NCBI RefSeq assembly: GCF_032854445.1
Contig: NC_088303.1
Coordinates: 20,097,501 to 20,161,500 of the forward strand
Direction of reading: 5' to 3'
Source: Liolophura sinensis
Taxonomy: Eukaryota > Mollusca > Polyplacophora > Chitonida > Chitonidae
Length of the DNA stretch: 64,000 nucleotides
In this document: positions 20,795 to 41,900 of the stretch, piece after piece
Position numbering within the stretch: the stretch's first letter is position 1
Layout: every line of letters starts with the position of its first letter
Made by a program: the position numbers and the translations under genes
Notes under the pieces: generated by a model
What the model was told of the DNA's origin: nothing
The model's database searches: none
The model's input: the letters and a program-made list of their open reading frames with translations, nothing else

Positions 20795-20860
20795 ATTAAT
20801 GAGAAATAACAGCAGATATCAAGTATACATTGCATCCAATTCTAGGAGAACAAAACTAAA
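20795..20860 (+). other. 5'UTR part of the ligase start exon
   Basis: A polypyrimidine acceptor (TTTCTTTTCAG, AG at 20793-20794) precedes the start codon by 66 nt, so at least one untranslated exon should lie upstream. The best open promoter candidate is the 19690-20270 stretch, but I see no decisive signal. Confidence 0.5.
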
Positions 20861-23800
20861 ATGGCAGCATCAAACAGCACCAAAGTGAAATGTAAATTTT
20901 GGGAGAAGTGTTATAGGAAGGATCCAGCACACAAGAAGGAATTCCTCCACCCGGGCGACTTATCAGCTGGTGAGGATGAGGGTATCAGGGGAGATAACTC
21001 TACCACTGGTGCTTATGTCACATCATTCTCTCACCAGAAAGATTTTGATTCAGATGAGATGAAGCTCAGCAATATTAACCTTTGTTTATCCCCTTTCAGT
21101 ACTTATAAAGTTAATGAACTTGTAATATTTACCTGTTTTAGTCCTTCACATTTTATTTCAAGTTATTTAAAAAAAGTTGGGAACATAACTAACTCCCCTT
21201 CTTTTGACATTATTTTTAATGTTTAGTGGTAATGAAATGCTCATGACCATATAAATAGAAACTTCATGATTTCATGGACTAAGACTTGGAACTTGGCTGT
21301 CTTTTTACTTCTGAGTTAGGCCCTCAGCATATAAGGAGATACAGCCAGTACTTGTCAATGTCAGTAATTAACAATTAACTAAATAAATAACAAAATGTTA
21401 ATCTACTTTATTGACAGGTACCAGTAAGCTGTCTGGCATAACCTTGAAGGGAAAGACGGTCGTGTTTACAGGAATATTATCCCAGGGTACACGGAAACAA
21501 GCCACAGTCCGAGCAAAGGGGTTTGGACTGGTAGTCAAACCCACTGTTACTAAGACAACAGATATTGTTGTTGCCGGTGAGATGCCAGGAAAAAAGCTGG
21601 ACTTGGCTGATGACAATGGTAAGAGCCAAGGTTTCATGTTAATTACATGAATTACAAGACATCACAAGGATATGTATGTATGTATGTATGCGTGTGTGTG
21701 TGTGTGTGTCTGTGTGTGTGTCTGTGTGGTTTAATGTCGTACTTAACAGTTTTTCAGTGATATAACGATGAGGAGTTACTAGGTGTGTGTACATATGTGT
21801 CTTCTTGTGGCAGGGTGAGTCCATGCCGCCAAAGTGTTGCTGCTGCGACATTATACTGACAGCGGGTCAACCAGCCATGATTCCTTGTTCTAACCTGTCA
21901 GTGGTGAGTGCCATTTGAGGCAGCTGCAAGACATCACAAGGAACATTGCTGGCAAATTTGTAGGGAGTGACTGCCCATTATAATCAAGTGAGGTTGTGTA
22001 TTCTAATCCAATCCATGCTTTTGATCTTAGCACAACTCTCTCAGGATACATGTTATTATGGTCGGTCAGCAGGGAATTCTTTTCTTTTTTTCAAGAGATG
22101 AATATTGTTAGAAGGATTTAAACAAAATTCTATCAAAATCTTGAGGTAGAACTGTAGTTTGGAGGGTTAAGCCCAGCAAACATATTTTTAGCAGGCCCTG
22201 GTTTCCTCTAGGCCCTGCCCAGTTTGTTCCACCAATACACGAGACCCTAGGAGGAATATGTTGTCAAGACTCTTTCAAACGAATAAATAGATAAAAACAA
22301 AAAATGAAGATGTGGAGCTCACCTTCTTTAGGTTTGCAGTATTGTGCACATGAATAAGTGAACAGTTAATTCTCTTCACTGCAATGTTCTTCTGCAGACT
22401 CCATGGACACATTTGCCAAAGTGCACTGCACAAGGTGACTTTTGTGTACATGTCTGAGGCTCTGGGGTTCTTGTTGTTTTGATTAATTTATTTATTTGAT
22501 TAATGTTTTACGCCATACTTAAGAATATTTATCTTATGCGATGGTGACTAGCATTATGGTGGGAAGAAACCAGGCAGAGCCGGTGGGAAACCTTGGACCA
22601 TCCGCAGGTTGCTGGAAGATCTTCCTACATTCATCTAGCTGTTTTGGCAAAAATTGTTGCCCATGTGGAAAGAATTGTTTGCATGGGAAATGGCACTACT
22701 GAGACCTCCAGTGATGGATGAAAAATGGTATTGAAAGCTGAAAGTATGATTTTGGTGAAAACAATATTAAGTCTGTCTTTTGACTTTTGGACACTTTGTG
22801 ACACAGTGACCCTGTCTAAACACTTGGTCTGTTACCTGTACAGGTGTGGCTGTTCTAACAGAGGAGGAATGGGAGCAACTCTTACTTCAGTCTGCATCTG
22901 GCCCTGGTAAAACAGGTAAACAGGGACATCTCATTCCCTCCAGTACTCAGACTGAAGGCAAACCATCTCCAAGCAAAAAACAAAAGGTAACATGCATGTA
23001 TCCTGAAAATGTAACTTTAATGGATGTCAAGGGTGGAGAAATCAAATATTGATTTATGATTACAGTGTTTTCTTTTATCTCCACCAGAACCATGAAAAGT
23101 GTTTTTACTGAACTCTTAACTATTATCATGCTGAAATGTACCTGAACATGTAATCATAATTTTCCAGTTACAATTGTCTATGGGTACCTCTGCAGGCAAG
23201 GTGGTTAGCATGCTATGGCGGAACAACGTCCTAAGAGCCTCTCACCAATGTAGTTTCTGTGAGTTCAGCTCTAGCTAATGCTGCTTTCCTCAGCGGCTGT
23301 ATGTGGAATGGCAACCTGTGTACTCTTTCAAAAGACATGACTTTATGTACACCGGACTACATCTGTTTTCTTGTTCTTAGCTTTTGAAAGATAGATTATA
23401 GTTTCTCCCAGGTGATGTTAAAGAAAAGCTATCCTGTTGACTGTGTGCAGGTAGTTAGCCATGAGGTGAGTGAGTCTGAAGGCAGCATCACAGACGTGAA
23501 CAGCTCTGATGACGAGAACGGGACGAGAAAAACCCCTCTGAGGCGACAGAGAACCCACAACCTCAGTGACAGTGAGGTTGGTTTAGGATGACATACATTG
23601 TATCAGCTGTAATAAAGACGAATAAAGAAATAAATTTATACCAACAAATGTAACATTCATTTATGAGTGCTAAACATTTTGGCATAAAATTTTATAGAAA
23701 TTAAATTCATAGTGTAATGTACAAATTGTATGTATGGTATTGGCATGCAAAGGTGAATACCTCATATTCATACATGTGCATAGGGAACGTCTTGTTATTT

Positions 23801-26800
23801 ATAGGATGAGTCACCCGGGCCGGCCATGAAATTTAAAAATGCCACACCCACATTGCCAAATGAGGGGAAGACCACACCCAGATCACCAAATAAGGGAAAT
23901 GCCACGGCACCGTCATTAAACAAAGGCAAAGCTCCAAGGTGTAAATACTGGCCTAATTGTTACAGGAATGACCCAACCCACCTGAAGACATTCCACCACC
24001 CACCTGTCATTCAAGGTATGGGAAATTTACAAATTCTTAAGTCAGAAATAATGAATGTACTTTTTTGCTAATGGATGCATTATATTCACTGGCCAGCCAA
24101 GTTCGCAGGGAGTAATTGTCGAGTCCAGCCATTTCACGGGATCATAGCGTTCAACAAATTGAATTGCGTGAACGGAACTTATGAAATAGACTTGTCCTAC
24201 ATGTGTCTTCATTCCACTTGTCAAAATCAACAAGTCAGTTGGACAAATTGCATTGTGTGAATTCACCTTTACACATACATTGTATTTTTACAAAAATATA
24301 GATTGGCCGAGGTGGGTTACTGTTCCAGTGCGGTGCAATTACCCAGGAGCCTCTCACCAATGCACACTCTGCGAGTTCAAGTCTAGCTCATGCTGACTTT
24401 CTCTCTGGCCATACGTGGGAAGATCATCCAGCATCCAGTGTTTGTGTAAACTCGGAACCTACGTCCAACATTCCGGTTTCTTGATTGTCAAGCGGAAAAC
24501 AAAATGTACTGTTCGCTACCTTCTGGGAAGAAGAGTTCTACCGGAAATGTATGAACTGCACTTCGGCGGTTTCCAAAGGCAATTCTCCTCCCAACACAAA
24601 AGACATCAGGACCATACTCTTTTCAATGGTGTTTGCTTGATATTTAAATTTTCTTCTCCTTTAAGATGCTGACCCAGGGGAGGGAACCAGTGCAGGTGGG
24701 GGTCAGGGTGATGCTGATTATGACGACGACGATGACGAACCTGCACATATCATGGATGTTGGGGAGACAGTGGACGTAGGAAACTACAGGATCAAGCGAG
24801 TCACTGACCATTACTACTGCACGTAAGATTCTTCTTACACGGCTGTATGTACATATGTATTATATGTGCGGGAGAAATATTTCCTGACAGAAAACTCAAA
24901 TACAATGGAGTTTTATATGGATGCATTTGGGGTGAGGTAGTGTGTTTATGTTTGAAAGGCGTGGGAAGAGACATTTACAAAGCCAAAAATTGGCTAAATA
25001 AACTTTTGCAGCATTACATCACTGTCTCATATATGTTTCGTTGTTTCAAAGAAACCCTATGAAGAAAGTTGTGTGAAAAAATGTTAGTTCATATTAGAAC
25101 ATACTTTTTGGTGGCAGAAGAAAATTTGTATATATACTAATGTTTTTTATCCAGAATATAAAACATGTAGTTATATACATGTACGCAGAACACTGTCATC
25201 ACGTACATGGTATAGATCTGTAACACACTGTACATGTAGTTATATGCATGTACACAGAACACTGTCATCACGTACATGGTATAGATCTGTAACACACTGT
25301 ACATGTAGTTACATGCATGTACACAGAACACTGTCATCACGTACATGGTATAGATCTGTAACACACTGTACATGTAGGTATAGACATGTACACAGAACAC
25401 AGTCATCACGTACATGGTATAGATCTGTAACACACTGTACATGTAGGTATAGACATGTACACAGAACACTGTCATCACGTACATGGTATAGATCTGTAAC
25501 ACACTGTACATGTAGGTATAGACATGTACACAGAACACTGTCATCACGTACATGGTATAGATCTGTAACACACTGTACATGTAGGTATAGACATGTACAC
25601 AGAACACTGTCATCATGTACATGGTATAGATCTGTAACACACTGTACATGTAGGTATAGACATGTACACAGAACACTGTCATCATGTACATGGTATAGAT
25701 CTGTAACACACTGTACATGTAGGTATAGACATGTACACAGAACACTGTCATCACGTACATGGTATAGATCTGTAACACACTGTACATGTAGGTATAGACA
25801 TGTACACAGAACACTGTCATCACGTACATGGTATAGATCTGTAACACACTGTACATGTAGTTATAGACATGTACACAGAACACTGTCATCATGTACATGC
25901 ACTTCGATGCTTGTAAAGCGACTTTTAATACTTTGAAACGTTCTGAGAAAACTATGGGGTGTAGAGTAACAGTTCGCAGAGTTTCATGAAGCTTGCATCT
26001 CTAGGTACAAAAAAAAATCATTTTAACCCCATTTTCCTGCATTTTGTGCATAAATTTCACAGAAAAAGTGCTGAAGATTTACAGTAGGTCACATTTCCTG
26101 AACACTATTGACTTGCAATGTTCTTACCTGACCAGGTGTATGGGATGGAAGACCCAGCCTGGCCCTGTCAACAAGCGTACATGTAAACACCTAAGACAGC
26201 ACCTTGGGGAGAAGTTTGAGGCAAAGCGTTGTGGTAACACAGGTGTTACAAAGAGACAATCTCCTCAAGTATCCAAGTCACCCATTAAAACGCCTCAGTT
26301 ATTGCTGGCCCAGAAGTTTGATGAGAAGTAAGGGTTGAGAAGTGTTTTGTGTTAGTACATGTGCCCTACTGTTAAGGTTTTTCTTGTAGCACATTAATTT
26401 AGAACACATTAATTTAGAACACATTAATTTAAAGTATAAATTATCATATTTATACTGTAATTGATAACATGTTCATTGTATACCACTATATGGCTGATTA
26501 GAATATTCCCAGGCAAAAAAAAAAAAAAAAGAAAAAAGAAAAACATTCAATCTTTAATTGGTAACACTGGTTCTGTTGCTGGTAAAAATTAGCTCCTTAA
26601 TACTTGCATTTTGTTTTTGATATTTGTGTTAATAATGTAGATATATACATGTATCTATGCACATGACATGCAGATTATTTACGGTAGTATGCTTACACTG
26701 GGCCAAAGATTACCTGGATTAATATCCCCTAATGTTGTTATTGACAAAGTACCAAAATTGCCTGTAGTACAGTGTTAAAGATGACCATAGTTGAAATTGA

Positions 26801-29800
26801 GTCTCTCGCTAGAATATATGTGTTACTAGTAATCCAGGTAAAGAATAACTGTAAGAAGGTTCAGCCTGTTCTGTAGTGGGCTACAGTCCTATTCATTTTT
26901 ATAGTACTCTGAGACTGGTAGCATAGTCCATAAAACCTACTATAGAATGCAAACATTTTAATGCATTTAATTCTCATTTAAAAAATCTGAAAAAAATAAT
27001 TGAGAAAATTTTTGCACATGGTTTTCTATTTGTCGATCAAACCTGAGTTCATTTTTTAGGTACATGTAAGGTACATGTACTAATAATCAATAACATTATG
27101 TTTGTTATTAGATCTTGATTTTTCTGTGATCTTTATTAGGATAGACCCAGCAGGGTGGTGGATGAGTGAGAAATTGGATGGGGTGAGGGCATACTGGAAT
27201 GGCAAGTAAGTCCACATGTACATGTCTGCATGTGAGATCACGTGCACTTGTACAGGATGAGTATATCGTCAGTGGTACTGTGTATGTATTATTTATGTAG
27301 CCACCCTGAAGATCTCATTATGTTACAAAATTGTGTGCATCTGTTTTTCATAACTTCAGCCGTAAGCAGAGTTGTCATGTGAGAATTGATCACAGACAGC
27401 ACCATGCATGGGACATATTGCACATGTACTCAAAACTCAATTTACAAACACTTGCGATTGAAAGATCTTGATTCCTCAGAGAAAACTTTGGCCTTTAGTA
27501 CCCGCTGGGGCCAATAAAACAAAGCCAGCTTAAACTTACATGTAAGTCAAAATTTGAAATATTATTTTAGAGCTTATTTTCAGGTCCTGTCAATTAGAAT
27601 ACTGACCTTCTCATCAATGTTATCTGAAGATCAAAATTTCAAATTCCATCACCAAAATCTAAACGTTATGGATTTTAGATTTTTAGTAAAGTGAGACCTG
27701 TCTTAGTGAAATCAGTCCCATGCCATAAATCATAGGCATAGTCTTAATCTCCATTTTGTAGAACGTTAAAATTACTTTAAACCAGAACTTTTTATCTTTG
27801 TGTTTCTGCATATTTTGATTTGATTGGTTATTAATCTCCATGGCCTCCTTTGCTCAGTTGGTTAGCGTGCTAATGCAGTGTAATGACCCAGGAGTTTCTC
27901 ACCAATGCGTTCGCTGTGAGTTCAAGTCAAGCTCATGCAGGCTTCCTCTCCGGCCGTATTTGGGGAGGGCTGTCAGCAACCTGTGGATGGTCCTGGGTTT
28001 CCCCTGAGCTTTGCCCGGCTTCCTCCCACCATAATACTGGCCACCGTCGTAGAGGTGAAATATTTTTGAGTACGGCATAAAACACCAATCAGATCAAATA
28101 AATGTGTTTTTGTGTTATTAGGGGATTTTACTCCAGACTGGGCAACCCTTTCTATGCACCATCCTGGTTCACAAAGGTAAGATGGCCACCAAACTACATG
28201 TATGTGCAAAGCTGTATACCTTGAATGCTTGTCTCAAATGTTTGGTAAAAGCTAGGCCTTGTGATACAATTTCATATCCTTGTAGTTTTTGACAGTAAAT
28301 TTATATTGTGATTTTGCCTGCCCATCTATCCATATAAATGTCTAATTAAGACTCAAACAAGTTAAACTGTGCAGAGTCAAAAACTTGCTACATACAGAAA
28401 TGGTGGCTTTACCCTTTAAAGCTTTAATGTCACCTCGACAACAAATTCAAATTGAAGAGTTCCTGATCTGAGCTGATTGCTATTATCAGGGATCATACCT
28501 ACAGATATGATTTATTGTTATTAGGGATTACCTGTAGACATGATTGCTTTTGTCAGATATTACCTGCAGACATATCGGGGGTTATCGGGGGTTACCGGCT
28601 GACATGATTTCTGCTGTCAGGAATTACCTGTAGACATGTTTGATGATATCAGGGATTAACTACAGGCATGATTGCTGTAACAGAGATTACGTGCAGACTT
28701 GGGTGTTCTTGTCAAGCATTGCATGTAGATATACTACTGTCCGGGATTACCTGCTGTCGTGGTTGCTCTTGTCAAGGGATTGTCTGTAGATATGATTTAA
28801 GTTGTCAGGGATTACCTGTAGATAAGATTTATCTTTTGAGGGATTGCCTTTAGATATGATTTATCTTGTGAGGGATAACCTGTAGATATGGTTTATCTTG
28901 TGAGGGACTGCCTGTAGATATGATTTATATTGTCAGGGACTGCCTGTAGATATGATTTATCTTGTCAGGGACTGCCTGTAGATATGATTTATATTGTCAT
29001 GGATTGCCTGTAGATATGATTTATATTGTCATGGATTGCCTGTAGATATGATTTATATTGTCAAGGATTACCGGTACACATGATCACTGTTATCAGGGAT
29101 TACCTGCAGACATGACATTGGATGGGGAGTTGTTTGGAGGAAGAGGAAAGTTCCAGTCGACTGTCAGCATTGTAAAGACTGCAGACTCTCCAGAGTGGAA
29201 GAAGTTGACGTATCAGGTACATGAATGGTGGTTTTCATTATTTATATTTTGTATAAATACATTTTGAAACATGTTGAAACCACGTGTGAACCCCTAGCCA
29301 ATTAACAAGTATTTTTATTGTTTATATTGGTTATTGTTTTGTGGGTATGATTTGAAGTTATTGTGAATTTAAGTGATGAAAGTACTTCACAAACAGCAAG
29401 TTTGTCACATCAAATAAATGTATTCTCCAAGAATACTATATTCAGATTTTCTTATTTCAGGAGATAAATTATCATTCATTATATATAGTAGCTTTTAAAG
29501 AGCAATTTAAAGATTGAAGAACTATTTAATATTAATACAACTGTACATGTATATCTTTTTCCATTACTGCGTTAGGTTTTTGATGTTCCTTGCAGTGGAT
29601 CCTTACCTTTTGAGAAGAGAATGGAAAAGGTGAAAAAGTATTTTGATGAGAACAGGTTTGTGGTAATTGTGAACACATTAAAACATGATTTATTGCATAT
29701 ACTAGTATAAACTGTTACTATCTGCTTATGTCAGATGTGGGAATTCACAGTGATAATTATTTTTAGTCGCATTCTGCTTTAAAATTCTTAACCACACAGA

Positions 29801-32212
29801 GTTTTTCTGTTGTATGTCATGTGACATTTATTTTAAACCAGTCTGTGAGTGTGTTCATTTGAAACTATTACTCAGAAAATTTAAACTATATCAGCAGAGT
29901 ATATAGATTTTCATGAGGTTATCTCCCTTTATCACAGTGCTCCAAGTGTCATTGTTGTGACACAGACCAAGTGCAAGGGTGGAACCAATCTGCAGGGAGA
30001 GCTGGAGAGAATAATAGCTCTGGGTGGAGAGGGGGTCATGATTCGTCAGCCAGGGTCACAGTATGAACACAGGAGATCACACACACTGCTGAAGTACAAG
30101 AAGTTCTATGATGCCGAGGTTAGTCTAAGTTTGGTTAGTCAAAGCTTGGCGGTATTATTGCATTTGTAGCATGTAAAAGTTGAATAAGGTGGTACATAGC
30201 AGCTGGTTAACATCATGTTCTTCATCAGCCTTTCTTCATCACCATTAGATTTAGGTTCACTCAAAACTTTAAACTGGCAAACATTTGGTGCAAAGTACAG
30301 TATAAAGAGGATCGTCTGATATATTTAGTATGGTGTTACTGTAATCCGTAAAACTACTAAACTGCAGAACTACTGAACTGTACATACAGTGTGAGATTTC
30401 GAGTAAACGCTAAAGTAATACAAATAAGCTAGTCAACTGACACTGTGAATTGAGAGAGCATTAGGCAGGTTGCTCTGTCTACAACTATTTCTAGTAATCG
30501 GCTGCAAGGAAAACATAGTGAGTGAGTGAGTGTTCGTTTTATTTGTTTTTACCAAACCCCAAGTGAATGATTTATGGGCACGGTCCAGAATATAAGCTTT
30601 TCCATCAAGATTTGTCTAAACATACTTGTTTGAAAGCTAGAGTTGTATATATTTACTTGCAAGTAAGCTTTAAAGTCTTCTGTTGCAGGCACGTGTGATT
30701 GGCCATGAGACAGGTAAAGGGAGAAATGCGGGTAGATGTGGAGCATTACGCTGTGAAATGGCTTGTGGGAAGAAGTTTTCTTGTGGCTCAGGGTCAGTAT
30801 CTGTTCTTGGTGTTTGCAGGATTTACGTTAAAATTATATTTCACATGTAGAGGTTATGTTGAAATTATCTTTCATATGTAGTTATGTTCAAATTATTTTT
30901 TGGACCTGCGCAATGACCCAAGAACTGCTTACCAATGCAGTTGCTGCGAGTTCAAGTCAAGCTCATGCTGGCTTCGTCTCTAGCCTTACCGGTGTGTGGG
31001 AAGGTCTGTCAGCAACCTGTCAATTGTTGTGGGCTCCCCCGGGGTCTGCCCGGTTTCCTCCAACCATAATGCTGGCCACCGTCGTATAAGTGAAATATTC
31101 ATGAGTATGGAGTATAACACCAATCTAATAAATAAATAAATAAAATTATCTTTTACATTCAAAAATTTTGTTCAAATTATCTTTCACGTGTAGTAGTTAT
31201 ATTAAAAGTATCTGTCACATGTATGAGTCATGTTAAAATTGTCTGTCACACATGTACATATAGAGGTCCTGTTTTATCTCACCAAATCAAAGGCTGACAT
31301 GTCTACAGATGGGTGTGATTACATTTTAGCGAGACAATAAACATGGTGTAAGAGGCATAGTGTACTTTCTTCATTTCCTTTGTACACAGAGATAACTCAA
31401 GAATTTTGGGAGTCAGTTTAAGGATTGTGTGATTTTGAATTGGCAAGTCAGTCGATCTTTAATCATGTCTCTGTTTTCTCCCCGCTCAGGCTGAGTGACC
31501 AGGATAGAAACAAACCTCCCAAAATTGGATCCATCATAACATACAAGTTCCAGGAGTACACAAACGACGGCATTCCAAGATTCCCAACATACCTTGGTGA
31601 GGGATGCATGTACACCTTGTTGTGTGTGTCCTACAATATTTAGTCTGGAGATTGGCTTCATGTTTTTATTTTAAAATGTACATGTAATTTGTTTGTGTTT
31701 TTGTGATACTCAAGAATATTTACCTGTAGGGAGTCTAATAATAGTCAGATGTAAACGTGAATGAAACTGACAAGAGGTGAAGGAAACCAGTGCTTGTTGT
31801 TAGCAACCTGCCTCACTCTCCATTTATACAGGGAACTTTCCAGAATTAAGAGAATCTTTGTGTTGATTGATCAAAGTCAGCTGTATTGTCCTCAATGTAG
31901 AGGATTAAACTGAATGAAGTTGATGTACCAGAATCTAGCTCCTACTTGTTACCTTGACTGGGGGTTTACAAGCGTCCTGTAGGAAATGTTCTTGCATATA
32001 GCACAGTCAGAATAAGTATGTTAGATTGCTTTATGATGATTCTCTTGCCAGCTTGCATTGCATTCTCTCCATTTTATCAGTAGACTGTAGAACATTTTTT
32101 GTTTCTTCTTAATTTTCAATCAGTCAGTTGATCAATCATTTACGCTGGGAGGTGTATATGTTTAACAGGTGTGAGGATTGACCTGAACCAGCCCAGTGTC
32201 CCAGATGATTGA
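20861..32212 (+). CDS. PBZ-BRCT-PBZ-SWIM ATP-dependent DNA ligase (ligase E-like)
   Basis: 631-residue protein from 15 phase-consistent exons: 20861-20969, 21418-21618, 22844-22986, 23451-23576, 23805-24015, 24666-24822, 26136-26327, 27140-27205, 28122-28176, 29097-29216, 29576-29655, 29938-30118, 30689-30792, 31490-31596, 32169-32212. Domains: PBZ zinc finger (C11, C17, H24, H30; CYRKDPAHKKEFLHPGD), BRCT (~38-115; LKGKTVVFTGIL), Ser/acidic linker, second PBZ (C239, C245, H252, H258), Asp run, SWIM-like CxC...CxH (C315, C317, C332, H334; RTCKHL), then the ligase core: motif I EKLDGVR with nucleophile K391, motif III LDGEL (E431), motif IV GEGVMIR (E518), motif V LLKYKKF (K539, K541), and an OB fold (IGSIITYKFQEYTNDG, PRFPTYLGVR). 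It lacks the N-terminal DNA-binding domain of LIG1/3/4. The core resembles bacterial periplasmic-type ligases (ligase E). PBZ fingers bind poly(ADP-ribose), so recruitment to DNA damage is inferred. Introns hold SINEs and two minisatellites. Confidence 0.93.
21665..21735 (+). repeat. Microsatellite (TATG)n then (GT)n
   Basis: ATGTATGTATGTATGCGTGT followed by GT-rich repeats; directly precedes repeat family B copy 2 in the ligase intron. Confidence 0.9.
21745..21960 (+). repeat. Dispersed repeat family B, copy 2
   Basis: Aligns by eye with 5968-6260 and 61575-61760: GGTGTGTGTACATATGTGTC, GTGAGTCCATGCCGCCAAAG, TTATACTGACAGCGGGTCAA, TTCTAACCTGTCAGTG, GAGGCAGC. Confidence 0.65.
22478..22632 (-). 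mobile_element. SINE copy, tail and core, minus orientation
   Basis: TTTATTTATTTGATTAATG, CATACTTAAGAATATTTATC, ACTAGCATTATGGTGGGAAG, CATCCGCAGGTTGCTGGAAG. Head missing. In the ligase intron before the exon at 22844. Confidence 0.8.
23180..23292 (+). mobile_element. SINE head fragment, plus orientation
   Basis: tRNA-like part only: CAAGGTGGTTAGCATGC, GAGCCTCTCACCAATG, GTGAGTTCAGCTCTAGCT. Ligase intron. Confidence 0.65.
24300..24428 (+). mobile_element. SINE head fragment, plus orientation
   Basis: GGCCGAGGTGGGTTAC, CCCAGGAGCCTCTCACCAAT, GAGTTCAAGTCTAGCTCATG, CCATACGTGGGAAGATC. Truncated before the tail. Ligase intron. Confidence 0.75.
25165..25900 (+). repeat. Minisatellite, 69-bp unit, about 11 near-identical copies
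   Basis: Unit contains ACTGTCATCACGTACATGGT, ATAGATCTGTAACACACTGT, ACATGTAGGTATAGACATGT. Copy starts are 69 bp apart (for example 25261, 25330, 25399). Since 69 is 23 codons, long frames stay open on both strands (230 and 253 codons); these are artefacts. It lies in the ligase intron before the SWIM exon. Near identity suggests recent expansion or homogenisation. Confidence 0.95.
27838..28106 (+). mobile_element. SINE, near full length, plus orientation
   Basis: CTCCTTTGCTCAGTTGGTTA head, GAGTTCAAGTCAAGCTCATG, GGATGGTCCTGGGTTTCCCC, CACCATAATACTGGCCACCG, AACACCAATCAGATCAAATA tail. It ends only 16 bp before the ligase exon at 28122, next to its acceptor. Confidence 0.88.
28485..29096 (+). repeat. 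Minisatellite, 32-bp unit, ending at the acceptor of ligase exon 10
   Basis: About 19 units of the form TTGTCAGGGATTACCTG followed by TAGATATGATTTATA. Each unit resembles the true acceptor and exon start at 29091-29115 (TATCAG then GGATTACCTGCAGACATGA). The exon begins inside the last unit. Confidence 0.85.
30905..31143 (+). mobile_element. SINE copy, head truncated, plus orientation
   Basis: Begins at CAATGACCCAAGAACTGC and runs to AATAAATAAATAAA. An imprecise duplication AAATTAT.TTT is visible on both sides. In the ligase intron between exons 30689-30792 and 31490-31596. Confidence 0.85.
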
Positions 32213-33720
32213 CAAACTGATTTAATCAATCATTCTTGCTGGCAAGTGTTTTATGTTTTACAGGTGTGAGGATTGACCTGGACCAGTCCAGTGACGCAGA
32301 TGTCCCGCCCAAACCAGGTGACTGACAATTTGAGTTGATCAATCATTCACTCTGGCAGGTGTTTTATGTTTTACAGGTGTGAGGATTGACCTGAACCAGC
32401 CCTGTGACACAGATGTCCCGCCCAAACCAGGCGACTGACAATTTGAGTTGATCAGTCATTCACTCTGGCAGGTGTTTTATGTTTTACAGGTGTGAAGATT
32501 GACCTGAACCAGCCCTGTGACACAGATGTCCCGCCCAAACCAGGTGACTGACAATTTGAGTTGATCAATCATTCACTCTGGCAGGTGTTTTATGTTTTAC
32601 AGGTGTGAGGATTGACCTGAACCAGCCCAGTGACGCAGATGTCCTGCCCAAACCAGGTGACTGACAATTTGAGTTGATCAGTCATTCACTCTGGCAGGTG
32701 TTTTAGTTTTTACAGGTGTGAAGATTGACCTGAACCAGCCCAGTGACGCAGATGTCCTGCCCAAACCAGATGATTGACAATTTGAGTTGATCAGTCATTC
32801 ACTCTGGCAGGTGTTTTGTGTTTTACAGGTGTGAAGATTGACCTGAACCAGCCCAGTGACGCAGATGTCCTGCCCAAACCAGATGATTGACAATTTGAGT
32901 TGATCAGTCATTCACTCTGGCAGGTGTTTTGTGTTTTACAGGTGTGAGGATTGACCTGAACCAGCCCAGTGACGCAGATGTCCCGCTCAAACCAGGTGAC
33001 TGACAATTTGAGTTGATCAATCTTTCACTCTTAGTCGGTTAGCGTGCTAGCCCAGCGTAATGACCCAGGAGCCTCTCACCAATGCGGTCGCTGTGAGTTC
33101 AAGTCCAGCTCATGCTGGCTTCCTCTCCGGCCGTAAGTGGGAAGATCTTCCAGCAACCTGCGGATGGTCGTGGGTTTCCCCCGGGCTGTGCCCAATTTCC
33201 ACCCACCATAATGCTGGCCGCCGTCGTATAAGTGAAATATTCTTGAGTACGGCGTAAAACACCAATCAAATAAATAAATAAATAAATCTTTCACTCTTGC
33301 AGGTGTTTTATGTTTTACAGGTGTGAGGATTGACCTGAACCAGTCCAGTGACGCAGATGTCCTGCCCAAACCAGGTGACTGACAATTTGAGTTGATCAAT
33401 CATTCACTCTGGCAGATGTATATGTTTTACAGGTGTGAGGATTGACCTGAACCAGCCCTGTGACACAGATGTCCCGCCCAAACCAGATGATTGACAATTT
33501 GAGTTGATCAGTCATTCACTCTGGCAGGTGTTTTATCTTTTACAGGTGTGAGGATTGACCTGAACCAGCCCAGTGACGCAGATGTCCCATCCAAACCAGA
33601 TGACTGACAATTTGAGTTGATCAATCATTCACTCTGGCAGGTGTATATGTTTTACATGTGTGAGGATTGGCCTGAACTATCCCAATGAAGCAGATGTCCC
33701 GCCCAAACCAGATGATTGAC
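32169..33720 (+). repeat. Tandem array of the ligase terminal exon, 113-bp unit, 12 copies
   Basis: Exon-equivalent starts: 32169, 32264, 32377, 32490, 32603, 32716, 32829, 32942, 33321, 33433, 33546, 33658. Each unit has TTTTACAG acceptor, a coding segment (VRIDLNQPSDADVPPKPG in the common form), a TGA, and a spacer TTGAGTTGATCAATCATTCA. Copy 1 is shorter (ends PSVPDD). Copy 12 has lost the AG (ACAT). Copies 2, 4, 5, 8 and 9 also carry CAG/GTGACT, a good donor, 54 nt after the acceptor. A SINE splits copies 8 and 9. Confidence 0.93.
33033..33284 (+). mobile_element. SINE inserted in the terminal-exon array, with target-site duplication
   Basis: Target duplication AATCTTTCACTCTT at 33019-33032 and 33285-33298. 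Removing SINE plus one duplication (266 bp) restores the 113-bp spacing between copies 8 and 9, so insertion followed array formation. Carries GAGTTCAAGTCCAGCTCATG and a (TAAA)n tail. Confidence 0.95.
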
Positions 33721-34205
33721 AAATTGACGTAGATGCCACTTGCAAGTGATTAGCATATCGCCATTCATGCTTGATGGAGAGCAGTATAATCAGTGATGCC
33801 AACTGCTGACATCAAAGTTATTTCAGGTGTTCAACACCTTAATCAGTCTTTAATATTAACTCTTAGTGTGCGGATACATGTAAAATGCTGACTGTGATGG
33901 GATTCTGTTTAAACTGTATATTTTCAGTTCACTCCACATTTTGTCTGCACGGTTTATTAATTAGCTTTACCTACTTCATTGACTGATACTATGCTGTAAT
34001 ATCTGTGATGATATGATTTCTACCTTTGGTTCAGGTCAATCCTCTACCTTTGCATTGATAAGCTTTTACAAGAATTGTATTTATACATACATTTACAGTT
34101 TTAATTTACAGTATATATTACATTATTTAATATATTAAGCCAAACAGATGAACCCCACTCTAGATTTTATATGTATGTATGAATTAAATACATAGCACAC
34201 AATCA

Positions 34206-34261
<56 letters not shown>

Positions 34262-35994
34262 TTTGGATCATTTGTGTAAAACTTTGTCATGCTTTATATG
34301 TTTCTGTATTAAGTTCAATTTTTTTTTTCATATTTTAAGTTTTTATTTGTATACATTGTTATAGGAAGTATTGTGATATATTAACAGAGTTCATATATAT
34401 ATATATATATATATTTGTTTTTATACACGTAAATATTGTGTCAGGCGCAAACTATTTATTATTATTAAACTATTTAAGAATTGTACATGTAGGCCTATTA
34501 GTACACTTTGATGAACTTTGTTATGGAATTTTAATCAGTTTTGTAATGAGAAAGATGTTCACACCCCTAGTGAAACGCATATGTATTTTTACATCATGAA
34601 TCTACTTTAATTCAAAGCATTATAATTAATGCAATACGCTGCCATTTTCAGCCAAGTTGCACGGTGAAAAAGTCAGAATCCTAAAATTAACACCAATGGC
34701 ACCATTTCACAAGTGGAAGTTCATGTCAGCATCTGGTGTCACCACCATGTGCTACCTATGCATTTATTTTTTGCTAAAATATATAAAAGATGACAGCTTA
34801 TAAATCACTTTATGGGTAAATCTGATATTTCACTCCATATAATTGTTTATGTTTCATACTTCTGTTTTAACATGACTGTACACCCTGAATTTGACTCTCA
34901 ACACTTCACATGATTCACACAAAACTGTTGACATAAATAATAAATAAAATATTTCGTGGTAAAATTTGAATAGTGTAAAGGTTTTGGTTGTGTAATGAAA
35001 AAGTAATACCACACTGGACACTTGTCAGGTTATTGTTCACATTTCATACAAAAATTATATGTGATGCTCTAACATCTCTATGCAGTATCCTCCAAATAAT
35101 ATTAGTGTGTAACTATTTAGAAGAGAAGTCAATAAAACAAAACCTATCTCAATGACACCCAGGTTTGAATTCTCATTTTTGTTTCATTTACGTTAAAGAA
35201 GCTTCAAGAATGTTCCCTGAGTATAATTAATAACTAATTCTGTTTAGTTATTGGCCTTTTGATTAAAAATCATGTCTTTCAATCAGTAGGATAAACAAGT
35301 TGCAGGTTGAGTCCCATGCTGTATACTTCCACTGCACCTCCTGTCTTCAACCAATTTAATATTCATTTCTGTGCGTCACGTGTGAGAAATTTTCTCAATA
35401 ACTTTCTAAAAATTGGAGATTCACCCTGAGTGCTGGAAGTTTCACATAATATACAAACAGTGTTCCGCCAAATGATTCCTGATGGCAAAATAAATGTTGA
35501 AATAAAAATGTTGAATCTAATCATAATCTTATTTGTGGATAATTCTCAAATATGATGAAAAACTGAACAATAAAGAAAAGCGTCTTTACAATGTACTTAG
35601 AAGATGGCAGTATGTTGAAATCGAACTGGTCTCCCAAAGCTCCAAGTAGCTTTGCCAGTAGTGACATCTCCAAAATCAGAGGTCCTTCGTCTATTATAAA
35701 CTTTACTCCGTTGAATAAAATAGGAATTAAATTCACACTTCATATGAAAGACAGGTGTTTTTTTTTTTAAATCTTTATTTTATTCTTAATTTTGTGGAAA
35801 CATGAGAAAACAATACTGAAGCTCCCTATTACAGTCATATAAAGGCTCCACTTTTAACATGACTTTATAATAGTCTGCATTTTGCATTTTAAATCCATGA
35901 AAGCAATCATGAGGCTTAAGATCTTGACTTTCATGTTCCAGATCACACTTTGTACTCATATGTTCCCCAGAAGTTGTTAATTTAGGAGCAAACT
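33721..35994. other. Intergenic, convergent 3' ends of ligase and ADAT1
   Basis: AT-rich, with (TA)n microsatellites at 34207-34260 and 34396-34415 and no coding exon. An AATAAA on the minus strand at 35780-35775 is a plausible ADAT1 polyadenylation signal. An open minus-strand frame at 35521-35736 has no recognised similarity. Confidence 0.6.
34207..34260. repeat. (TA)n microsatellite
   Basis: About 25 TA dinucleotides with one G interruption near the end. Confidence 0.95.
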
Positions 35995-38900
35995 CTACTG
36001 ATTCAAAGGAGATCCATCAAATGTACATGTAAATTGCAGATGGTCCCTAGGTTTTGAGATCCAGGAGGAGAAAACCATTTTGAGTTGGTTCCAAGCAGTT
36101 TGATAGGAACTGGCAGCTGATTTACACACCCAGTAGGCAGTTTGACTGTTCACATTTCTGAACAAAAAAAAAGCAGTAAAATTTACATGTAAATAATACA
36201 AAGTGGCAAGAAAGAACAATTACACTGACTAACAAGACTGAATAATGTCCGAAATACAAATGTCACAAAACACAGGTTTCAAAAAAAACAATTGTGTGAG
36301 GCTCAATTGTGTGAGATTTTACAATAATGCCTTAACATTTTCACATATGAAAGAGCAGCTATCATTGCAATTTATGCATAATCTGATTTTGGAGACAAAA
36401 CTACATTGACTGGATTGGCCAATCTCAGGGCTTCACAAAAAGTACAATTTTATCAGCCTACAAAGAACAATGACTTGAATAAACACCTTTATACTGTAAG
36501 CTGAATTAAACCATGAAATAAAATGTGTCAAAATATAACCTGTCTAGGCTATTTTTAAAATATGTTTGTTGGGAGTAATCTGACCGATCAACAAAAGTGT
36601 CGTACTCTGCAGTTCTATAGCGTATTTTTCCAAAAGGTACTTGTCTTATTTTCCCCTCAGTGTAAGTTTGAACTGTCTTGAAAATCCAATTCTTCTTAAT
36701 TAATAAGAATAAAAAAAAATCCCTATCAACCAGATTTTGTTGTTGTGCAGAATGGTTGAACTATGCTGAACAAACAAAAGGATGGCCTGAGACAGCTGAT
36801 ACCTGTCGACCTACACATGACTTACCTGAGATTCTCTGGTCTTTGATCTTCTGGTAAAGAAAACAATAATCCATGGAACTTTTTGTAAAGTTCCACTCCA
36901 CAAATTTCACACCTGAAATGCAAAAATGTTCATAATATTTTCTTCTGTCTTTTTACACACATCAACTGTTCTGGACACAATTTTCAATTTAACCACATTT
37001 AAAAGGACTATCATTCTTAACATTAACTTAAATATAATATGAATTATTTAGCACAACTGGGTGGATAATTATCTCACGGTCTGCATGAGACAGTTCACAA
37101 AATAGGAACAGGTAATATTTTTCCCCAGATAAAACACAGCAGGTACATGTTGTCACTTTGTTTACCTATAAAAATCATGGACCGTTTCTTGTACAAGTCG
37201 TGTAAAGACCACCAGCATGAGTGTTACAGTTTAAACAAAACCCCACAGATTCCACAAACAAAACTTGCAGCCTATCCAAAAGTGCCAATGGGTAAGCATT
37301 TTTTACAGGGAGATCTGAAAGTTTATTTCACTGTTTTCTTATTTCTGTTTCTTTATGTTGTATTCACAACTACTTCATTAATGTCAGCTATCAGGTTTAT
37401 ATGTGAAGAAAATGTCACTACGTATCTAATAAATAAATCTTCAGCCAACCTTGACGATCTATCTCATCAGTCAAAAAGCTTGTTTTCTTCACTCAGAAAC
37501 ACGGTAAATTGATTCAATGAGTCAGCAAGACCATGTCAGGCCTTTCTTTCATGTATTAAAGCCTAAAATCATGTAAGCATCATATAATTCCAGGCACAAG
37601 AAAGATTACCCTGCAACTTCTCCAAAAAGCATACACTGATACATGCTTCTCTCCCTTTTTCATTAGGCACGACAACAACTTACCTGGACTGGGGTTTGTT
37701 AAAATTTTTAGCTGTAACTCCCTGTTTTCTCCCAGCGACAGACACCTCTGGTCCCTTCAGTTGGCCCAGGTACCACATGCTGGCTGGGAAGAGATGGGCA
37801 TTAACGGTATTAAAGTTAATCGCTGTGAGAAATTATAGTAACACTCGCAGCAGACACCCACACACCCACAAACATGAAGAGGATTTTCTATAAACACGAG
37901 ACACAGATTCTGATATTTAATATAAGTACTTGAATAAACAGCTTATCAATAACACAGACTGAATGTATAGCCATGGAAATGATTACCTGTAGCGGATGGT
38001 TTTAATTTCACTTCACACTGTTTCTCTTTCGCACTGACTTCATTCATTTCCCTGCCATCAATAAAAGCCTGGCTGGACTGATTGCATTTCAGCTTGTTGA
38101 CATGGTAACCAGAGGGCAGGTTAGTCACCATAGCAACCCTCTTCACTAGTGCTCTCTGCATAGCTGAACTGCTGAATGGACACCTGACAAAATATTGATG
38201 AAGTTGTGAATTGCCATTGTCCCATAGTCTTCACAGATGATGTGAATATCATCCAGGGTTGATGCATACATTATGTGTTGCACCTCCTTTATAAACTTTA
38301 TAACACAGTTGACCTTACATATATTTTAAATTTCACTTGATGAGGTATTGGCAGAAAGTTTCTGACTGATGTCTTCTGAAATTAGTCCAGAGATTCTAAT
38401 TCAGAATCTTCATAAAATAGGTAAATAAAGAAATATTTTGAACTTCAACCACTACATAGACAAAACAAATATATTTAAAAAAAAGGTTAATAATATAATA
38501 TACACTTTCATGAAAACCAAGATGTACCTACCTACCAACAACCAGACTGTGTAGATAAACCGGTTGTGCCAGGAAGTGGGAGAGCAGCGCCCCCTGGCAG
38601 CCAGTAACATTCCATCGTGCCAGTTTGTCACTACATGACATGCTCAGGGTCCTATCTCCTCTGCCTGGTTTAATCCTCAGTGCCCCTAGGCAGTGATACT
38701 CCCTCCCTTCTCCCCGGGGATCCTGTACACCCCCGGGTACGCACTTGGCCCCTGTGCGATAAATGTCTTGGACTCCATTCAACAAAGACTGATCAGATTT
38801 TGCAGGACTTACATAGTTTTGACACTGTCGACCATTTTTTCCATCCAACTCAGCCCGATCTGTAGCCTTTCCAACGGTATCCTGTTTTTGTGCTGCCATA

Positions 38901-41900
38901 TTGATGGCAGGGACTGATGCTTGTGATAATGAATCATAACCCCTATCAGTCAAAGCTGCACTCTCCTCACCTGACTGCTTACAAAATTCAACACCCTCAG
39001 TGTCATACCTGTGTATTACCTGACCTGAAAACACAGGTGGCACTCTCTCGATCTGAGAGCAAGCTCTTTCACATCTCACTGCCTCAGAACAGATACAAGG
39101 TTCAGTCCGCAGTTTCTTAGGCACTGGTTCACCACATGGCTTCACAGCACTCTTTCTTTTCTGGTCTGATATCTCAGGCACAAATGACACTGTGGGCTTA
39201 CATGTAGAACCAGCATTCTGGTCTGGGGTCCCCACAACTTCACCAAATTTAAAATCACAGTTTTCTTGTTTGGGAAATATTGATGCATCTCCACCTAAAA
39301 TATACAGTATACTAGAGGGTCTATACTGCTGCCTAAAAGTCTGCTAAATGTGCAGTTAGGTAAGTTACCAAAGTGGCCACAATTCCTCTGTGCATAAAAG
39401 TTTTTGTTCATTAACATAAATAGCCTATGCAGAAATTTGTGGGCCTCAATTGTATACCGGGCCCAAATATGAGATGCAAACTGATGAAAGGAGATAAACC
39501 TCTAGAATAAAAGTAACAGACATTTGCATGCTGTTACACTCACCACATCAGAGCAGCCATGGTCAAATTAGCACACAATCATGGACATCGGCCTTTGATT
39601 TTTTTTTTTTTTTTTTTTTGATTGGTGTTTTTCCCTGTACTCAAGACATTGGCCTTTGAGGCTGCAGCTGCTTTTCACTTTCAGTAAAAAGGCAACATTT
39701 CAAACTAACACTTTCTACCTAACATTTTCAGTTTCTCCATCGTGTTTACCTTAAGCTACTGCAAATAGGGGTATGATTTCCAATGCAGAATTTTAATCAA
39801 ACAAATATTTAATGTAGTAAGCATGCTAGGTTAAAGCACAGCCTGTCACGTGAAAAGTATTACACAGCTCCCTTATACTGCAAGATCTCTAGAAATTTTG
39901 ACTGAAAAAATGCTGGAAATGTGAAAAGCGAATGTGGGTTATAACATTGTACTTATTTGGCAACAATCCTAAAGCCCTGTTTGAATGCACAACAAGGGGA
40001 GATAAGCCAAACTGATCAGGGGATACAGCTTTAACACTAACTTCAAATTGTTTAACAACATCTGAAGTGAAAGTTGACACCATTTTTTCCATGAGATAAT
40101 CACATCAAGTTAACATTCATGGATTCTTGTATGAGCCTAGGTAAAATATAAGAACTACTTATCTACACACAAAATTACAAGTAAACTTACAAGGTGTGTG
40201 AGAGGTGTACAAGTGAAATCTGACACCTGTTTTCACCTGACATCTGAACACCTGTGACTCTGATGAATGCCTTTCTAACACATCACTCTGCTCTCCCCTG
40301 GAAACTTTCAGCAGCTGGTCATACAAGTAACTGAAATAACAAATATGTATAAACCCTGAAAATGAGCAATTCATGAATACTGGCACACCTGGTAACTGTT
40401 TCTTTGAAGACACGAAATACATAAGATGTTATGTGCATGAACACTCCAACAACAGAAAAGAATAAAAAAAAAACATTTTGTTCTGCTTACAGGCTTATGG
40501 CTACGAGGCGATCTTGTCAAACATTAAAATCTTCCATCAGTGTCTTCCATCAATGTCTTCAGCAGATACATGTGCATGTAAGTTTGCAAAGCTGATGCAC
40601 TTTCCACAAGAAAGCTCTGCATGCGATGAGTACAGATCCAAGACTTACACACTTATCACAGAAAAGCTTTCTGTGCAATGACTCTAGCAGATACACTCAG
40701 GTTACCAAAGACTTACACACTTATCACAGAAAAGCTGTCCGTGCAATGACTTCAGTAGATACACTCAGGTTACCAAAGACTTACATACTTACCACAGAAA
40801 AGCTTTCTGTGCAATGACCCCAGCAGATACACTCAGGTTACCAAAGACTTACACACTTAACACAGAAAAGCTCTCCATGCAATGACTCCAGCAGATACAC
40901 TCAGGTTACCAAAGACTTAAACACTTACCACTGAAAGGCTCTCCATGCAATGACTCCAGCAGATACACTCAGGTTACCAAAGACTTACGCACTTACCACA
41001 GAAAAGCTCTCCGCGCAATGATTTCAGCATGGCTATCATTCAACACATCACCTATACAAAAGTAGAAAGTATAGAAAGTAACATGAAGAAACATTGATGT
41101 ATCAGAACTAGTAGGAAGTTTTTTCTCTACAACTTAGTAAATACTGTGGTAAAAATTAATATACGTTAATACTCGAGGAATTGAATGGATATGTTTACAG
41201 GCATGACTGGCTATAAACTGGCAGAAGAAGTGCTTCCTGGTATGTTATGTTGTAGATTACTACACTACTTAAAGTGCTGAAGTCAGCCATTAAAGCTGAT
41301 TTAATTAATAAAGTAGTAGGCCAGAAATGTTCTAAAAATGTTTAAAAAATTGTACACCTCTTATCAACAAAAGAAACAGAAAATGATCGTCAGTATCTCG
41401 CCACCCATTTGGTGACGCTATTTTGCCATGTTATGGTTATCTATAGTGAAGTAGACAAACTCTAGGAGCCCTCCTGTACCATCGGTATTAAACATTATGC
41501 CAACGAGAAAGTGCAAACAAAAATGCCTGATACCCAACCAAAGAGAATCGAATTTGTCCTGTTTTCACAGGGTTGATGTTTCTTTTAGCCTGGCACTCAG
41601 TCTGGGTGGTCTTTGTGGGCACAAGAGTCATGTTTTAAGCAGTTCTGCCTGTCCTCATCTTCAACTTGCATGGGTGTCAGCATTAGGCCTAGCTGGCTGT
41701 ACTGACTTCAGGGAATTTACCGAACATAGCAGGATCTACTGCTTTATAACTCTTTCGTGCTGATTTTGTAAAGATCTTAATGTAATAAATCTGACTTTGC
41801 TAAGAAAAAAAAATCGCAGTGTCACAATATTTTTCTTCAAACAGTGACTCTCCCCAGCTCTCTTGCCAGCTCACCATGACAAGTTACTGTAGTCTCCTGC

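Follow-up and report, generated by a model that had tools for sequence, protein, structure and literature searches.

The terminal coding exon of a predicted ligase gene of the chiton Liolophura sinensis was analysed in a stretch of 64,000 nucleotides (assembly GCF_032854445.1, contig NC_088303.1, positions 20,097,501 to 20,161,500, forward strand). This whole stretch is referred to as the window, and coordinates are those of the window. The acceptor side of the exon, stop codon included, is spanned by 12 tandem units between 32169 and 33720. The array is very probably a minisatellite of the mirage type, near-neutral in its effect, and not a device for making protein variants. Mirages are minisatellite-like tandem duplications of exon-intron boundaries and were named in amphioxus (excerpts of PMC3087553 and PMC3902484). 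The features that place the chiton array with them are its boundary-spanning units, the acceptor AG in 11 of the 12 units, and a homogenised middle with diverged edges.

Anatomy of the array

An earlier annotation made from the letters of the window (the sequence-only reading) had described a 12-fold repeat of the terminal exon in 113-bp units, each with its own acceptor. The twelve units were recovered. They are not all head to tail, as an inserted short interspersed element (SINE) splits units 8 and 9. The usual unit is 113 bp, from which unit 1 (95 bp, 18 nt shorter than the others) and the steps into units 10 and 12 (112 bp) depart. The unit start was defined as the first base after the acceptor and is the first coordinate of each unit line below; a slash marks the splice position.

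32169..32212, + strand: unit 1; acceptor AACAG, GVRIDLNQPSVPDD and stop; 18 nt shorter; no donor
32264..32325, + strand: unit 2; acceptor, tail and stop; donor-like CAG/GTGACT
32377..32438, + strand: unit 3; acceptor, tail and stop; CAGGCGAC at the donor position
32490..32551, + strand: unit 4; donor-like CAG/GTGACT
32603..32664, + strand: unit 5; donor-like CAG/GTGACT
32716..32777, + strand: unit 6; no donor
32829..32890, + strand: unit 7; no donor
32942..33003, + strand: unit 8; donor-like CAG/GTGACT
~33033-33284, + strand: tRNA-type SINE with AAATAAAT tail, inside the array between units 8 and 9
33321..33382, + strand: unit 9; donor-like CAG/GTGACT
33433..33494, + strand: unit 10; no donor
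33546..33607, + strand: unit 11; no donor
33658..33719, + strand: unit 12; acceptor lost (ACAT); VRIG for VRID; final unit, adjoining the unrepeated 3' sequence

Read in the phase that the exon ending at 31596 imposes, 12/12 units were found to hold an open frame closed by TGA. The acceptor AG is present in units 1 to 11, while unit 12 reads ACAT/GTGTG. The earlier count of at least 11 units with an acceptor and an in-phase frame with a stop was thus correct, and an acceptor in every unit was one too many. The donor-like CAG/GTGACT was confirmed exactly 54 nt past the acceptor in five of the 12 units (2, 4, 5, 8 and 9), as had been claimed. At the same position CAGATGA followed by T or C stands in units 6, 7, 10, 11 and 12, and both edge units (1 and 12) have CAGATGAT. 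Units 1-11 encode 10 different tails, with one common tail in units 6 and 7.

Tandem Repeats Finder returned the array in pieces between 32131 and 33727. In a search of the chiton's own genome the array was found only at the ligase locus (at least 8 matches, all here), and it is too long and too alike for a chance match. The SINE insertion is flanked by a 14-nt target duplication, AATCTTTCACTCTT, read by eye, and the element has 15 further BLAST matches in the window, partial or full. The end of its tail holds four overlapping AATAAA words (33269-33286), which could end transcripts after unit 8.

Constraint on frame and splice signals

The variability of the exon and intron parts of the units was compared. 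Column, distance and codon counts omit unit 1, owing to its shorter length, and, within unit 9, the initial 19 columns of the intron part, which are SINE tail. Among units 2-12, the exon part had 17 variable columns out of 62 and the intron part 17 out of 51 (Fisher P 0.54), with a pi of 0.081 for the former and 0.078 for the latter. The counts were 12/62 and 16/51 for units 2-11 (P 0.19), and 11/62 and 8/51 for units 3-11. Changes from the commonest codon in units 2-12 numbered 14 nonsynonymous and 3 synonymous; one of the 14 is the stop-making intermediate of CAG to TAT in unit 12, and leaving it out gives 13 to 3. About 26-31% of changes are expected to be synonymous in the absence of constraint, so the observed ratio is near the unconstrained one. 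All constraint tests on the exon part gave P > 0.15, and in this small sample of units 2-12 the coding parts showed no more constraint than the sequence around them. The similar variability of exon and intron and the 14:3 ratio thus gave no support to selection on frame or splice signals. The claim that frame and splice signals are conserved over most units did not hold, as nothing was seen beyond the general likeness of the copies.

The rival explanation most closely concerned with these counts is that selection keeps the units as alternative last exons, the choice among 11 acceptors giving about ten C-terminal ligase tails. The 11 acceptors and 12 open frames speak for it, as do the few changes at the acceptor and VRID block of units 2-11, and this explanation is nevertheless improbable, given an exon part with no detectable constraint. 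A scan of 32101-36000 located AATAAA or ATTAAA in the SINE (33269-33286) and from 34183 on, and none in the units; the units therefore do not qualify as classical alternative last exons, each of which would carry a 3' end of its own. In addition, the matches shown to ligases in the Protein Data Bank (PDB) go no further than the fifth residue of the unit. Of the alternative C-termini that had been proposed, what stands is that a complete frame would follow from any of the 11 acceptors; selection on frame or signals found no support.

Some observations weigh against the near-neutral interpretation. The exon part of units 2-12 is free of indels and of premature stops. Few of either would be expected anyway, and the lack of premature stops is unremarkable, since no more than about 5% of changes would create or abolish one. 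Over a 25-nt block made up of TTTTACAG and the exon's first 17 bases, a single column varies in units 2-11, so that the acceptor and the VRID block are little changed there. Its probability is 0.004 for the block as chosen post hoc and 0.08 for any 25-nt window, and with unit 12 added there are 3 variable columns (P 0.32). This weakly suggests that several units may have retained acceptor and OB strand. Finally, in a boundary array of a neighbouring ADAT1-like gene (see below) GT is kept in 2/6 decoys, that is, copies other than the authentic site, and the decoy donors there were possibly weeded. Set against this, AG in 11/12 units of the ligase array could be read as retention.

Minisatellite-like behaviour and comparison with amphioxus mirages

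The likeness between units was analysed in relation to their position. Neighbouring units are more alike than distant ones (Mantel r 0.38, P 0.011). Among units 2-12 the most diverged are units 2 and 12, with values of 0.127 and 0.112 against 0.055-0.082 for the others. The middle of the array is homogenised and the edge units are diverged, unit 1 having 18 nt missing. This pattern is what a minisatellite under unequal exchange would look like. The donor looks derived because both edge units have CAGATGAT where five inner units have the donor, and the simplest explanation is that it originated as a variant inside the array and spread there.

The available parts of the amphioxus papers (PMC3087553, PMC3902484) report mirages in Adh3, the globins BflGb6 and BflGb9, troponin C and PGBD5. 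These have many AG/GT signals, a homogenised middle and diverged edges, they are spliced regularly, and their copy number differs between haplotypes. They have been proposed there as a source of new introns. The chiton array resembles them in having tandem units that span a splice boundary, many but not all of which keep AG/GT, and in its concerted evolution inside and divergence at the edges. Its 113-bp unit falls within the 10-160 bp given for amphioxus units in the same excerpts. It differs in its host, a mollusc and not a cephalochordate, and in lying at the boundary of the last coding exon, so that each unit carries a stop. A further difference is that the unit nearest the unrepeated 3' sequence has no acceptor and another copy must splice: with the acceptor of unit 12 dead, another copy would carry the splice site and with it the end of the protein. 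No mirage from a mollusc was found in the portions of the literature searched, mainly titles and starts of abstracts, and in the papers retrieved the term was applied to amphioxus alone, every search for mirages having included amphioxus.

The following course of events would account for the array. A segment comprising the end of the last intron (40-50 nt), the brief coding stretch through the stop and a few 3' bases would have been duplicated in tandem, and the array would then have expanded, with unequal exchange making its units partly alike. Splicing would join the exon ending at 31596 to one acceptor among units 1-11, probably mostly that of unit 1, the first AG met. Later acceptors may perhaps be used in a leaky manner, the downstream units otherwise staying in the 3' untranslated region. 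Whichever of units 1-11 is used, the last OB-fold strand would be the same (G-V-R/K-I-D), followed by a short tail and a stop. Amplification was probably near-costless and persistent, because nearly every unit gives this same strand, short tail and stop.

Possible chaining of 54-nt exons

Another explanation holds that the 54-nt exons (phase 1-1) are chained in frame to give a variable number of 18-residue C-terminal repeats, the locus then being a snapshot of intron and exon birth. The motif CAG/GTGACT scored 9.2 bits, compared with 5.5-10.2 bits for seven donors of the ligase gene (human-type matrix), and acceptor and donor are both AG/GT in phase 1. The intron from unit 8 to unit 9 would be 325 nt long owing to the SINE, and a join passing over one unit would have an intron of 172 nt, or a longer one if more units were skipped, so that neither route needs an intron of 58-59 nt. 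Intron gain by tandem duplication has already been published: the consulted part of PMC4974935 describes it for AGGT-containing sequence, for example in the potato RdRp gene. As there, duplication in the chiton leaves acceptor and donor-like site correctly ordered and phased. The chiton case differs in that its would-be introns, known from the genomic sequence, are mostly 58-59 nt between neighbours.

These lengths count against chaining, as the other neighbour joins all need introns of 58-59 nt and the smallest gap between adjoining exon matches, read by eye from matches of hidden Markov models (HMM) in the genome, is 123 nt. The catalytic introns of the ligase gene are about 280 nt or more in the by-eye exon model. 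Moreover, unit 1 cannot splice onward and would have to be skipped, and the GT donor is absent from 7/12 units (1, 3, 6, 7, 10, 11 and 12), both edges included. The derived look of the donor, with CAGATGAT at both edges, is a further argument on this side. Chaining is thus very unlikely; of the chain of 18-residue repeats that had been suggested, the five donors in phase remain.

An assembly artefact, with the repeat collapsed or falsely expanded, is the least credible explanation: tandem arrays commonly cause assembly error, but the units are distinguishable (units 6 and 7 share one tail and differ in their intron parts), the inserted SINE is a landmark within the array, and the HiFi reads of the assembly average 8.3 kb according to the extract of PMC11068029, longer than the 1.6-kb array. 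The authors of the assembly later corrected the species name from Liolophura japonica to L. sinensis (PMC12441733). Amphioxus had been considered as the source because of the mirages and was rejected, one reason being eight haemocyanin beta-sandwich matches in a row on one contig, a molluscan trait.

The ligase gene

The gene that carries the array was outlined by a Pfam scan of 10 stretches and by eye; the ligase exon limits are a by-eye model.

20846..21223, + strand: first PBZ zinc finger, open frame; PF10283, E 1.6e-10
21402..21647, + strand: BRCT domain, open frame; PF00533, E 3.9e-07
23805..24068, + strand: second PBZ finger, open frame; PF10283, E 1.3e-06
29938..30118, + strand: ligase catalytic exon (GGEGVMIR...KYKKF); PF01068; limits read by eye
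31490..31596, + strand: OB-fold exon, donor TTG/GTGAGG; PF14743; PDB ligases 8u6x, 4d05 and 6gdr

The scan gave no match in four of the stretches, of which 28122-28289 was in the wrong frame for its exon (FYSRLG). PF01068 was matched in one exon (E 1.4e-05, 25.3 bits, just below the curated cut-off of 26.2); three further stretches of the catalytic region had no match, one of them being the stretch scanned in the wrong frame. The OB domain PF14743 was above its cut-off (E 2e-14), with positions 29-63 of 66 lying in the exon ending at 31596. The three PDB ligase alignments shown extend into unit 1, covering its opening VRI, VRID or VRIDL. These matches bear out the earlier statement that the last exon completes the OB fold, PF14743 reaching position 63/66 upstream and the PDB matches continuing into VRID. 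Each unit is predicted to supply the end of the OB fold and then a tail. The tail past the OB strand has 9 residues in unit 1 and 15 in the others, and it lies outside the PDB alignments, except that one of the three shown reaches its first residue.

The gene looks like a ligase-E-type enzyme, a membership suggested by its domains. Ligase E with PBZ fingers has been reported from a few other animals, according to the part of PMC10665377 consulted, which mentions three further animals with PBZ at the N-terminus and records ligase E from Lottia, Biomphalaria, Capitella and Saccoglossus. The bdelloid rotifer ligase E described in it combines an ATP-dependent ligase and OB domain with PBZ fingers, as the chiton gene appears to do. 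The chiton gene differs from the ligase E of that paper in having its last exon in an array and in adding a BRCT domain, a word absent from its main text.

A split motif, YYCT...RTCKHL, was also noticed in the frames 24665-24826 and 26120-26240, between the PBZ and ligase domains. It reads like a SWIM-type motif. The Pfam scan gave no match for the 26120-26240 stretch.

Boundary arrays elsewhere in the window and genome

Two further arrays in the window touch exon edges, one of them in the ligase gene itself and the other in the neighbouring A_deamin (ADAT1-like) gene, where PF02137 was matched at 38531-39343.

28486..29115, + strand: second boundary array, ligase gene; 32-bp units at the acceptor side of exon GLPADMTLDGELF
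40640..41029, - strand: third boundary array, ADAT1-like gene; 68-bp units at the donor side of an exon

The former consists of about 20 copies of a 32-bp unit made of the acceptor and the first ~20 nt of a catalytic ligase exon.

The frequency of such arrays was estimated with an exon sample of 80 of the 81 loci L012-L092, L045 being omitted as it lies within the window. The loci correspond to 30/81, 21/21 and 30/132 matches of three HMM match sets. Arrays of period at least 15 cover 13.7% of 164 kb at 51 loci around myosin and A_deamin exons, a figure that includes L045 and to which some overlapping loci contribute. Local copies cross 7/160 exon edges of the 80 exons, compared with 76/480 flank control points assumed to be mostly intron. 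The P of 7e-05 for this difference is approximate, since some loci overlap, which leaves part of the points non-independent, and the match ends are not established as splice sites. The edges are HMM match ends and may lie inside the exon, so that boundary arrays may be missed and the difference between edges and flanks overstated. That exons are special targets of repeat birth, as suggested by the three window arrays touching edges, was not supported, flank points being crossed more often.

On reading, four of the seven edge hits were upheld, which gives clear boundary arrays at 4/80 exons: L029 (66-bp units), L037 (32-bp) and L081 (73-bp, 20 copies) at the donor, and L068 (64-bp) at the acceptor. 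In L081 (1641-3150) the donor of a kinesin exon, GACAGAG/GTAAG, is followed by 19 more copies, mostly at 73-bp spacing. The hit at L092 was dismissed as intronic, the match having overrun the exon (6/160 without it), and that at L035 as a single distant copy. The hit at L049 came from a terminal exon whose coding tail recurs at 75-83% identity. At L049 (~1000-1520) the A_deamin coding end appears by eye to be repeated past the stop, perhaps as a second terminal-exon tail array. L060 has donor-like copies that fell below the test for a local copy at an edge.

The splice dinucleotide is kept in 34/38 decoys of the four upheld arrays (L081 18/19, L029 6/6, L037 4/4, L068 6/9), counts that exclude the authentic copies and lean towards retention because the scan windows contain the splice site. 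Intact signals in the ligase array are therefore weak evidence of use, because the decoys are largely intact where their use should spoil the protein. The ligase array does not seem special in the chiton genome.

Implications

It may tentatively be proposed, as a conjecture well short of the mirage-type interpretation itself, that boundary minisatellites are general in the chiton genome and that chance decides which of 11 nearly equivalent ligase acceptors is used, with about ten tails as the outcome. If this is true, the arrays would be a test bed for how the spliceosome chooses among copies and for the birth of introns, in a lineage far from amphioxus, the known host of mirages. With about 1/6 of flank points crossed by local repeats and boundary arrays at 4/80 exons, the chiton genome would hold many natural experiments in splice choice. 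A tandem boundary array would cost nearly nothing in only a few parts of a gene, of which the last exon is one, and the ligase array would be the case in which a wrong splice choice is almost free.

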